From Oscillospiraceae bacterium (GTDB lineage: Bacteria; Bacillota; Clostridia; Oscillospirales; Ruminococcaceae), in the NCBI GenBank assembly GCA_015067025.1, contig SVNC01000001.1, positions 248,001 to 312,000 of the forward strand: a stretch of DNA of 64,000 bases, given 5' to 3'. This document shows positions 24,287-27,178 of this stretch, one piece after another. Every line of letters begins with the position of its first letter. Within the stretch, counting starts at the first letter, position 1. The notes beneath the pieces are model-generated. The model saw nothing but the letters and a program-made list of their open reading frames with translations, had not been told where the DNA came from and searched no databases. A program made the translations under genes and the position numbers.

Positions 24287-24630
24287 AGCAGTATCCTCAC
24301 TCCGCTTACGATTATTATAATTCCAAAAATCTTTTTTAGCAGGTCAGAGGAAATTTTCTTGAGTGTAATAGAACCAACTACCGCACCTGCAATTCCGTAG
24401 GGGATAAACTGCATAGAAAGGGAAAAATCAAGCTTGCCGTTTATAAAATAAATGACTGCAGTGAAAAGGCTGAGTACAAAAATCAGTAGAACTGATGAAG
24501 CATGAGCTTTTTTTGTTTCAAGTCCGTTTTTTTCAAGGCAGGGAACAGCAACAGTACCCCCGCCTGACCCGAAAAGACCGTTTAAAAATCCGCATAATAA
24601 TCCGAAAAGATAGGAAATTTTATTTTTCAA
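24283..24630 (-). CDS. TauE/SafE-family half-permease (first of a pair)
   Basis: This 115-residue membrane protein has about four hydrophobic helices and the motif GLLCGFLNGLFGSGGGTVAVP, shortened here to the SGGG core that repeats in the partner as LGGG. It starts at TTG 24630, with AGGGTGA 6 bases ahead. A TATACT -10-like box lies between it and the terminator of the upstream RNA gene, so it likely has its own promoter. Its stop overlaps the next gene by 4 bases, so the two are translationally coupled. Together they add up to one full-length TauE/SafE permease. Confidence 0.82.
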   Translation of the reverse strand: MKNKISYLFGLLCGFLNGLFGSGGGTVAVPCLEKNGLETKKAHASSVLLIFVLSLFTAVIYFINGKLDFSLSMQFIPYGIAGAVVGSITLKKISSDLLKKIFGIIIIVSGVRILL

Positions 24631-24674
24631 TTATATTCACCCTTTTTAGTATAAGCGAAAAATATCTGAAGATA

Positions 24675-24707
24675 CAAAAAGCCTTACTGCCAAAAAGCAG
24701 TAAGGCT
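24675..24707 (-). terminator. terminator of the 6S-like RNA
   Basis: AGCCTTACTGC (24680-24690) and GCAGTAAGGCT (24697-24707) form a perfect 11-base stem with a T-run on the reverse strand. Confidence 0.85.
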
Positions 24708-24860
24708 GAATTTTTATGTACCACCTTGCCGTGGTATGACGATAAAACCCGTACATAAGCACGGTGGGTAAGATCACCCGAATGGTTCACGCTCCCTTCG
24801 TCCGCTAAAAGCGGGAGGTCTGCAATCCGCACCCGGAGTAGAAATCCCTATTATTTAAGT
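24675..24860 (-). ncRNA. ssrS: structured RNA, probable 6S RNA
   Basis: This reverse-strand transcript of about 185 nt has its own promoter (TATGAT at 24866-24871, weak TTGTGC at 24888-24893). It ends in a strong terminator: AGCCTTACTGC, loop, GCAGTAAGGCT, then TTTTTG. No ORF fits. The 5' GGATTTCTA can pair with the TAAAAATTC just before the terminator as a closing stem. Inside are hairpins TACCAC/GTGGTA, CCGTGC/GTACGG, GGGT/ACCC and CCGC/GCGG. Length, rod-like closure and proximity to rarA (as for B. subtilis 6S-1) favour 6S RNA, which binds sigma-A RNA polymerase. The identification is by architecture and position, not by a covariance search. Confidence 0.5.
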
Positions 24861-24913
24861 GTTGGATCATAACAATCATACTTAAACGCACAAGGCAGTT
24901 AGAAAGCTAAAAT

Positions 24914-25243
24914 TTATTCAGCGTCTTCGCCGAAGATCTCTTCTGAAAATCTTTCAAGGAAAGCTGCTCCGATACGATTGTATTCGTCATCGTTGTCTAT
25001 TGTAGCGAGGTATGTTTCGCCATCCTTTTCAGTTTCCTTTAAGATTACAAATTCATCATCATCGATATCTTCATCTTCGTTTTCGCTGTAGGGAACAAGT
25101 GCATAATATCTGCTACCATCATCTAACTCTAAGCCGTCAATAATTTCAAAGGTAACTGTGTTGCCTTCTTCATCTTCAAGGTCGATGAGTTCGGGAGTAA
25201 ATTCTTCTTCCTCTTCGATTATGTTCTTTTCTGCTTCTGACAT
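24914..25243 (-). CDS. DUF1292 (YrzB-like) acidic protein
   Basis: This 109-residue, highly acidic soluble protein has the DUF1292 pattern: LIDLEDEEGNTVTFEIIDGLELDDGSRYYALVP in outline (key parts EDEEGNTVTFE and YYALVPY), then DDEFVILKETEKDGE. The family is common in Firmicutes next to the RuvX nuclease gene and has no known function. Here it is alone, with a promoter at 25291-25319 and an AAAGGAAAA binding site. The probable 6S RNA follows about 50 bases downstream on the same strand. Confidence 0.85.
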   Translation of the reverse strand: MSEAEKNIIEEEEEFTPELIDLEDEEGNTVTFEIIDGLELDDGSRYYALVPYSENEDEDIDDDEFVILKETEKDGETYLATIDNDDEYNRIGAAFLERFSEEIFGEDAE

Positions 25244-25290
25244 AATGTTTTCCTTTCTGTCGGTGAGATTATCTCTCTTTTATGATTATA

Positions 25291-25319
25291 ATTTTACACG
25301 AAAATATACCTGATGTCAA
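25291..25319 (-). promoter_or_regulatory. promoter of the DUF1292 gene
   Basis: On the reverse strand TTGACA (25314-25319), 17 bases and TAAAAT (25291-25296). Confidence 0.75.
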
Positions 25320-25467
25320 GTGGAAAATGTTATCTTGCGGCTAAGAAATGTATAGTAAAAGGCAGAATTTATCAAAATATTTGCTTTTTGTGAAAACGTT
25401 ATGTAACATTATGCATATTAAACAAATGGTGTTTGTGCAAATTGTACATCTTTTTTCAACTTTTGTG

Positions 25468-25496
25468 TTGACAATTTACTCATTATGTGATATTAT
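25468..25496 (+). promoter_or_regulatory. promoter of the large non-coding RNA
   Basis: A perfect TTGACA (25468-25473), 17 bases and TATTAT (25491-25496), with a start point near 25503. Confidence 0.8.
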
Positions 25497-25629
25497 TTAA
25501 TCAAGGAAAAGAAAACCCCAGACCGAATAAACAGCTTGGTGCTTACATCTTAACTTAGTAAAGTGAGTTTATTCATAATGTACACAAGATGGCAAGGTGT
25601 ACAAATCTGTCGAGAAGGAGGCGAGTCCG

Positions 25630-25686
25630 ATGGGTAAAGAGCCAGTTATTGAATCACAGTCTGTTGAGACTCGTGGCAAATATTAA
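25630..25686 (+). CDS. possible 18-residue peptide inside the large RNA
   Basis: The ORF reads MGKEPVIESQSVETRGKY. It is preceded by a perfect AAGGAGG (25615-25621) with 8 bases of spacing, the optimal arrangement. It lies about 130 nt into the orphan transcript. The peptide is hydrophilic with no membrane segment. The ORF could be translated, making the RNA dual-function, or the purine-rich motif could be structural. I recognise no homologue. Confidence 0.3.
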   Translation: MGKEPVIESQSVETRGKY

Positions 25687-26046
25687 ATAGGGGTATTTAT
25701 CCTGATACTCAAACGGTATCAGTGACAACCTGAAACCTTAAGATTTACTTAAAATGCTATGAGTTATGTGCTGACTATACGAAAACCTTAATTGCATTGT
25801 AATGATGCAGATTTACCGCTCAGGCGTTTACATAAACCTATAAAGGCATGGTGATTGATATGATTAGTTTTCTTTCAGTCAGAGGTAGTTTTAAATAGGC
25901 AGTTGTAAAATTTAAGGATGTGTTTAAGGTGATAAATTATCAATAAACTGCAAAATAAGAATCAAATATTATTAAGCGGGGTATATACCAATGTACTGAT
26001 TGATACTATGAGTTCGGTTTAGCCGATCTTAAAACTGAATAGACTT

Positions 26047-26080
26047 AAACCTTACGGTATGTTTTGCCGTAAGGTTTTTT
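26047..26080 (+). terminator. intrinsic terminator of the large RNA
   Basis: AAACCTTACGG (26047-26057), a 9-base loop and CCGTAAGGTTT (26067-26077) are followed by TTT. Confidence 0.9.
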
Positions 26081-26133
26081 ATGTTTTGCAAAAAAAATTT
26101 GCTAAAAGTAGTGCAAAAGAATATAAATTGTGG

Positions 26134-26139
26134 TATACT
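26134..26139 (+). promoter_or_regulatory. extended -10 promoter of dnaD
   Basis: TATACT preceded by TGG (an extended -10) lies 17 bases after GTGCAA, a poor -35. It sits beyond the large-RNA terminator and before the TTG start at 26183. Confidence 0.55.
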
Positions 26140-26182
26140 ATATAGTGGATATGAATCGAATTTTATAGAAGTGGTGATCAGT

Positions 26183-27178
26183 TTGAATTATAAAATAGAC
26201 CTTGGCGGATGGAATGGTATTTTCGCTGTTCCAAACGATGTTGTTGACAGATACATAAAAATTGCAAGCGGCGGTGCAGTAAAGGTGCTACTTTATTTCC
26301 TTCGCCATAGCGGAAATACAGAGGATACCATGCGGGTGTCTGAGGCTTTATCTATAAGTAATGAGGACGTGTGCGATGCACTTACCTTCTGGGAACAGGT
26401 AGGACTTATTGTAAAGAATAACGATACGTATACACCTTCCCCCGAAAGAAAAGCAATGCCCGTTTCCGTTAAGACTGAACAAGCTTCTGCAGCAGAAATT
26501 ACAGAGGAGCAGGCACGCTTTACAGCGGCAAAAACAGCGGCTCTTCGTTCTCCGCATTTTTCTCCCCTGGAGATTTCTGAGACGGTCAAGGGCAACGATG
26601 AAATAAGCTTTTTATTCAAGACCTGTGAGGGACTCTATGGAAGACCTCTTAAGCATACCGAACAAAACGCTCTTGTTACCATAATCGATGATATCGGGCT
26701 GCCTGCAGAGGTTGCTCTGATGCTTGTAGATTATTGTTTTTCAGTGGACAAGGCAACTCCTGCATATATGAGAAATATGGCAGTTGAGTGGGTTGAGAAT
26801 GGTGTTACCACACTTTCGTCCGCTGAAGAATATATTTCACGATTACAGTCAAAATACGGTGCAGAAAATACAGTAAAAACAGTTTTCGGGCTGGATAGGG
26901 CACTTTCTCAGAAAGAAAAGGAATTTGCACTTGTCTGGATTAATGAATGGCAGTTTAATTCGGAGATAATCCGACTTGCTTATGATATAAACGTTAATGC
27001 CAAAGGAAAGTTTACATTCCCTTATATAAATAAAATTCTTGAAAACTGGCATTCAAAGGGTCTTACCACAAAGGACCGGATTTTGGAAGATCAGCAGAAC
27101 AGAGCTAATAATAATGAGATAAAATCGTCCTTTGACATTAACGAAATTGAAAATATGATTCTTGATGATTATATGTAA
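26183..27178 (+). CDS. dnaD: DnaD-domain replication initiation protein
   Basis: This primosome protein works with the helicase loader at replication start or restart. An N-terminal winged-helix region (GIFAVPNDVVDRYIKIASGG to ALTFWEQVGLI) is followed by two DnaD/DnaB_2 domains, about residues 140-215 and 235-305. The second domain ends in FPYINKILENWHSKGL, the YxxxIxxxW DnaD signature. I take TTG 26183 as start because GGTGA lies 5 bases ahead. The in-frame ATG at 26081 sits at the end of the preceding terminator and upstream of the dnaD promoter. This gives 331 residues. The helicase-loader gene follows 11 bases later. Confidence 0.88.
   Translation: MNYKIDLGGWNGIFAVPNDVVDRYIKIASGGAVKVLLYFLRHSGNTEDTMRVSEALSISNEDVCDALTFWEQVGLIVKNNDTYTPSPERKAMPVSVKTEQASAAEITEEQARFTAAKTAALRSPHFSPLEISETVKGNDEISFLFKTCEGLYGRPLKHTEQNALVTIIDDIGLPAEVALMLVDYCFSVDKATPAYMRNMAVEWVENGVTTLSSAEEYISRLQSKYGAENTVKTVFGLDRALSQKEKEFALVWINEWQFNSEIIRLAYDINVNAKGKFTFPYINKILENWHSKGLTTKDRILEDQQNRANNNEIKSSFDINEIENMILDDYM

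Follow-up and report, generated by a model that had tools for sequence, protein, structure and literature searches.

6S RNA binds RNA polymerase, CsrB-type RNAs are sponges for an RNA-binding protein, and SgrS and RNAIII are dual-function small RNAs that each carry one short reading frame. The bar minigenes of phage lambda consist of an AUG followed by a stop within one or two codons, behind a Shine-Dalgarno (SD) site. Among free-standing structured RNAs, the available portions of the literature describe the raiA motif or ModT RNA (RF03072) as abundant in Bacillota and Actinomycetota and usually, though not universally, located near comFC or raiA genes (PMC11706538), with a length of about 205-210 nt (PMC12286853, PMC11751092), and give a length of 577 nt for OLE in C. 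acetobutylicum (PMC12286853).

The evidence presented below supports the assignment of the locus under study to a free-standing, conserved, structured RNA of a putative, undescribed family. Its features and those of its neighbours are listed here by position in the window, that is, the whole 64 kb stretch of DNA that was analysed.

24714..24904, minus strand: candidate 6S RNA in a conserved context; score 45.6 bits, gathering score 46.4
24914..25243, minus strand: gene for a DUF1292 protein (PF06949), divergent neighbour; conserved context
25468..25496, plus strand: promoter TTGACA-17-TATTAT with TG before the -10 box, 11 of 12 consensus bases
near 25503, plus strand: predicted transcript start, placed from the promoter
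25503..26080, plus strand: whole RNA, about 575 nt, predicted from sequence only
25525..25574, plus strand: helix P1, 25525-25532 GAAUAAAC with 25567-25574 GUUUAUUC
25580..25602, plus strand: hairpin P2, 25580-25585 with 25597-25602, changed on both sides in relatives
25616..25633, plus strand: module A core AGGAGGCGAGUCCGAUGG, comprising Shine-Dalgarno site, conserved spacer and start codon
25622..25673, plus strand: hairpin A, 25622-25627 CGAGUC with 25668-25673 GACUCG
25630..25686, plus strand: ORF A, 18 codons, MGKEPVIESQSVETRGKY
25794..25808, plus strand: hairpin P3, GCAU 25794-25797 with AUGC 25805-25808
25815..25834, plus strand: conserved ACCGC-loop-GCGUUUACAUA element
25860..25898, plus strand: ORF B, 12 codons, MISFLSVRGSFK, after GGUGAUUGAU
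25980..25999, plus strand: last module GGUAUAUACCAAUGUACUGA, with the minigene Met-Tyr-stop at 25991-25999
26047..26077, plus strand: intrinsic terminator of 13 pairs

The sequence-only reading of this DNA had proposed an RNA with its own promoter and terminator, and both were found. Terminator-like sites between 24000 and 28000 were above chance (10 versus 2.7 expected), and promoter-like sites little above it (19 versus 14.1); the promoter is given weight because relatives of the RNA show a similar one, as judged by eye, and not from the site counts in the window. No frame of at least 40 codons lies between promoter and terminator. The earlier statement that the transcript encodes no normal protein thus holds for long frames, but it overlooked small SD-AUG frames whose starts and stops bear signs of selection. 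Furthermore, the RNA strand was more stable than dinucleotide shuffles (z -2.20; 2 of 100 shuffles as stable), and the genome holds a single match to the RNA.

Searching the whole window with Rfam 15 (4227 models) returned no match at gathering score, either to ROOL, GOLLD, OLE and the other large RNAs that the sequence-only reading had wished to see checked or to the raiA motif. Thirteen matches up to E = 10 were obtained over 24600-26200, of which the only strong one was 6S on the opposite strand; ROOL, GOLLD and OLE were absent among them. In Rfam searches of a further 15 and 20 loci the matches were confined to 5S, 6S and tRNA, and the 6S model did not match the RNA itself in the window or at related loci. 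The likeness to ROOL and OLE, drawn from size, is therefore without Rfam support, and we rejected membership in these classes. RF03072 gave 0 matches in 21 genomes, but this negative result is weak, as none of the 14 control genomes gave a match either. Our RNA resembles raiA RNA in being free-standing and structured but differs from it in length (about 575 versus about 205-210 nt) and in its neighbours, which in place of comFC or raiA are DUF1292, 6S RNA and a DnaB_2-domain (DnaD-type) protein. It also carries SD-AUG repeats, none of which is described for raiA RNA in the available portions of PMC11706538, PMC12286853 and PMC11751092. OLE, ROOL and GOLLD are of similar length, and the chain of micro-ORFs sets the RNA apart from them. 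Nothing that we recognised as this RNA was found in open-licence papers, surveyed mostly at the level of title and abstract. A new class, which had been put forward as a possibility, is consistent with the absence of Rfam matches and with conservation of the RNA, but its most distinctive feature, the SD-AUG micro-ORFs, had been missed.

Evidence for structure came from comparison with relatives. Alignment A1 comprises 11 same-genus sequences and omits L006, which is close to L003, as well as the more distant L072, L079 and L080. Within it, three pairs of P2 show changes on both sides, and hairpin A shows none. Taken together, P2 and hairpin A reached a covariation score of 0.300 versus 0.224 for shuffles, none of 500 of which scored as high, with all double changes belonging to P2; three double-change pairs were reached by 23 of the 500 shuffles, and further pair types numbered 9, fewer than in shuffles (10.4). 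When the best helix was taken per locus, a comparison that has no null, the arms differed yet paired in 11/11 loci for P2 and in 9/11 for P1. The P1 arms read GAGCA/UGCUC, GAACAA/UUGUUC or AAACGAAC/GUUCGUUU, and those of P3 read GCAUUG/CAAUGC, GCAGA/UCUGC, GCAGGU/ACCUGC or GCGAU/AUCGC. P1 in L005 and L009 and P3 in L005 were misanchored automatically, their pairs being visible in the sequences; P3 was not detected in L008, and in L075 the pairing lies elsewhere.

Hairpin A joins the start region of ORF A to its own coding part, and its predicted fold extends over the AUG. When the hairpin A region was folded alone in six sequences, the long stem of the best structure contained the AUG in four (the window, L181, L160 and L036) but not in L182 and L165, with z-scores from -0.70 to -2.19. 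Singly the hairpin is weak (p < 0.05 in 15/43, median 0.08), and it was not found in place in several loci, such as L157, L067, L021, L049 and L032. Different arms occupy the same place in L124 (CCAGUG/CACUGG), in L130 (AGGCGUC/GACGCCU) and in L119, L120 and L122 (UGUGCUU/GAGCACA), observations made without a null. The better fold than shuffles and the helices that keep pairing through changes in relatives bear out the claim of a structured RNA. Its description as an ornate noncoding RNA was half right: P1-P3 stay paired through changes, but SD-AUG modules are present as well.

To place the RNA among relatives, a blastn survey covered 99 genomes (its own, 59 of the same genus and 39 of the same order; E <= 0.01) and gave matches in 17, namely the own genome, 10 of the same genus and six with short weak hits (E 0.004-0.0095), which were dropped as short. 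In the ten of 59 same-genus relatives the 5' part of the RNA is kept (E <= 4.2e-9); these matches end at query positions 144-241 of 596, so that likeness at this level is confined to the 5' part. Scanning genome contigs for the core of module A yielded 36 stretches, which were read by eye. The same RNA was seen in Ruminiclostridium-type records. We also take for relatives two termite-gut-type records (Emb289 and Th196, their habitat taken from the isolate names), one goat Oscillospiraceae record and, further, Candidatus Soleaferrea, a Clostridiales MAG and Collinsella/Enorma. Eleven stretches (L019, L020, L023, L025, L031, L039, L044-L046, L050 and L052) were set aside as chance matches in or before genes, and L018, L022, L037 and L043 were neither accepted as the RNA nor set aside.

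In the class of Enorma, 9/149 genomes had the core at no more than one mismatch, only some of these nine Coriobacteriia matches having been inspected. An order-wide pattern search matched 24/394 genomes, plain gene starts among them (for example L060, L066 and L082), and a class-level search matched 12/293; class-level matches outside the order (L178-L180, L188 and L189) looked by eye like genes or single sites. The core also matched four viral contigs, where inspection by eye suggested ordinary ribosome-binding sites, and a viral origin was discarded. The narrow covariance model R1, derived from 11 same-genus sequences, found 5/197 family genomes, including its own, in a draw that held few genomes of the same genus. 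Applied to 35 loci, most of them chosen for the core, it matched L080, L079, L026, L072 and L027 at E <= 2.6e-4; in L036, L040 and L042 of Enorma/Collinsella (E 0.002-0.0035) it matched the core and hairpin only. The Collinsella/Enorma RNA is a shorter version (L036, L040, L042, L049 and L032) with one AUG module and then a GC-rich terminator, before which a second core followed by AAAGUA stands in 4/5 loci. By eye, a frame ending near CPQQIDIP precedes the RNA in L040 and L042, and a similar one does so in L036.

The distinctive part of the RNA is its SD-AUG modules. The core of module A has the motif AGGAGGCGAGUCCRAUGG, and the modules share a conserved spacer, (U)GAGUCCR. A possible likeness of the module to the complement of the 16S tail requires one G to bulge out, and a search of the own draft genome did not turn up this tail. 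The expression GG-N(2-7)-[GT]UCC-R-AUG was run on 79 regions and matched 70 times on the forward strand and 0 times on the reverse, with 1.5 matches expected from shuffles. Because the core itself had served to find 28 of these regions, the fair figure is that of the 51 regions chosen by 6S (including G136, whose core was known before), with 33 matches on the RNA strand and 0 on the opposite one. ORF A is the only module with AUG detected by these expressions in L160, L163, L164 and Collinsella/Enorma, leaving aside a chance-looking match in L032.

Beyond module A, 42 of 58 modules were left after an 80% filter, a count that keeps at least three taken for noise (L021 in a gene, L032, and L157 inside ORF A). 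A stop occurred within three codons in 29 of the 42 in frame 0, compared with 7 and 11 in the other frames, where counting was slightly more lenient; shuffling the sequence downstream gave a mean of 8.6 and a maximum of 17 (2000 draws). Within nine codons, the figures were 38/42 in frame 0 and 23 and 19 in the other frames, against a mean of 21 and a maximum of 32 in shuffles. The modules thus have SD, AUG and an in-frame stop within a few codons, as the lambda bar minigenes do, but here a conserved chromosomal RNA with its own terminator carries several of them consecutively.

Module A differs in opening a longer frame. Forty-three first modules were gathered, of which 36 were kept after an 85% filter. 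Frame 0 was closed before codon 17 in only 1/36, compared with 24/36 and 25/36 for frames +1 and +2, and the stop fell at codons 17-25 in 34/36 and at codons 16-27 in 36/36. Among nine loci without the usual core, six (L119, L120, L122, L124, L130 and L176) show an SD followed by a frame of 17-22 codons, in a search limited to 14-28 codons, so that the length itself is no evidence; the same search found no such frame in L129 and L167, and an extra ORF in L131 at 674 was taken for chance. Judged by sequence, this is a selected short frame on a small RNA, as in SgrS and RNAIII; unlike these, the RNA has one to six SD-AUG modules, often several, the later ones mostly start-stop. Conservation of the RNA, its covarying helices and its selected frames make decay of a coding gene, which would have undone the proposal of an RNA, unlikely.

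Minigenes with only one to three codons could hardly serve by their peptide, which makes initiation and release the likely point; from this we propose that the RNA engages initiating ribosomes, as a sink or a sensor. We put the probability that this free-standing structured RNA works by engaging ribosomes, a function inferred from its modules, at about one half. Ribosomes would initiate on the SD-AUG modules and be released almost at once, and the number of occupied modules would report the supply of initiating ribosomes, or remove ribosomes from use. Translation might open hairpin A and so switch the fold of the RNA, whose action would be in trans or that of a sink, not that of a dnaD leader. 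If the modules do load ribosomes, this would be an RNA class whose signal is translation initiation itself and whose gene is kept next to 6S RNA in these bacteria.

The main rival, which we consider doubtful, is that the RNA is a polycistronic micropeptide mRNA, of which ORF A (17-25 amino acids) and ORF B (12 amino acids) are the working part and in which the minigenes couple or pace translation. We kept it, as the peptides of ORF A and ORF B may be put to use. ORF A is open only in frame 0, and ORF B has exactly 12 codons in 11/12 nearer same-genus sequences, with frames of 10, 11 and 16 codons near its place in the more distant L072, L079 and L080. By eye, ORF A peptides share an acidic start (such as MGTEPIGQ, MCLDEPIGQ, MGKEPVIESQ, MYEEPKHS and MATEPQ), and in one clade ORF B shows several silent differences. 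Against this stand the strong divergence of the peptides between genera and the fact that part of their shared residues (SQSVE.R) is encoded by the conserved RNA strand GUCUGUUGAGACUCG closing hairpin A; moreover, no useful peptide can come from a frame of only one to three codons. Even if peptides were the product, it would be unusual for a polycistronic transcript to consist of frames of 2-25 codons, which are too short to be picked up by gene finders.

Another explanation holds that the RNA is a CsrB-like sponge whose RNA-binding protein would recognise GGUGAGUCC or GGA repeats, the AUG being secondary. The core is indeed repeated and conserved, and GGUGAGUCC is kept without AUG in some modules: in L167 (GGUGAGUCCGAAAGACAG), in L038, in Collinsella/Enorma (followed by AAAGUA) and in several modules of L118, L121 and L123. 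This indicates that something other than initiation also keeps the spacer conserved. However, of the matches in a looser listing, 71 have AUG after the core, far more than have any other triplet, and the in-frame stop is under selection, which makes a sponge improbable. The three AUG-less cores of L038 lie about 140 nt apart. Downstream of module A on the minus strand, this locus has a three-copy tandem repeat with the same period of about 140 nt, which carries GGGGUGAGUCC and, about 20 nt on, a AUGAUGAAAGUCAUU-like hairpin.

A large structured noncoding RNA of the ROOL, GOLLD or OLE kind, on which the small frames are incidental, would agree with the size, the fold z-score and the covarying helices described above. 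It is nevertheless very improbable, as neither the window nor the related loci matched such a class in Rfam and RNA structure alone leaves frame-specific stops unexplained.

The genomic neighbourhood bears on the last rival. We located 6S in the order, where 170 of 198 genomes had a match; the own genome has its sole match at 24714-24904. Sixty regions adjoining 6S were fetched, weighted to the own family and one other, and 57 of them have an ORF related to the DUF1292 gene of the window near 6S (about 1.3 kb off in L159). By module or by eye, the RNA lies divergent from DUF1292 in 12/15 usable regions of the own family, a sixteenth ending at a contig edge, and in 8/13 regions of the second family, f24. 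No clear case was seen in 31 6S regions of other families, 24 of them surveyed over 1.3 kb and seven by the expressions only, some of these regions being truncated. 6S and DUF1292 also adjoin the core in L021, L024 and L038, and in the two termite-type genomes the distance between 6S and the core is about 0.7-0.8 kb, provided that contig C5 is the record ending 000005. In Enorma the RNA is far from 6S, with a sub-threshold 6S match at 1,486,923 and the RNA at 802,178 on the same contig.

A role as leader or attenuator of an adjacent gene, for instance dnaD, is favoured by the presence of dnaD within 1.5 kb downstream in 5/11 loci but is the least probable reading, because a strong terminator separates the two and the RNA is kept where the DnaD-type gene lies elsewhere (142 kb away in G014, 28 kb in G048, on another contig in G019 and G034). 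This supports the sequence-only reading in treating dnaD as separate. dnaD is no constant partner, and the link to DUF1292 and 6S, which that reading had missed, holds more widely.

Returning to the proposal that the RNA engages ribosomes, its place beside 6S RNA suggests a role in growth phase. A role parallel to that of 6S, with ribosomes in place of RNA polymerase, is a tentative extension: tandem start-stop modules would hold or count initiating ribosomes, and refolding of hairpin A would report their supply. If the modules load ribosomes, the RNA would open a direct way to study how such cells gauge their supply of ribosomes.

Other observations concern the surroundings and short frames elsewhere. 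A PADLOC search with two neighbour proteins returned nothing. A stem-loop at 24680-24707, terminator-like on both strands, lies between a TauE-type gene and 6S. Near-identical short frames were seen in family f20, with MAHTTDQ (L064 and L085), MAHTTDP (L063) or MAHTSDQ (L083), at position 1500 on the reverse complement in L063, L064 and L083 and at 1500 on the plus strand in L085. They come from genomes G341 (L063 and L083, twice in the same genome), G353 (L064) and G329 (L085). By eye, each stands behind AGGAGGGGAGTCCRATGGCTCAT and promoter-like sequence and before genes for apparently secreted or membrane proteins, and the f20 short frame looks like a repeated regulatory leader.
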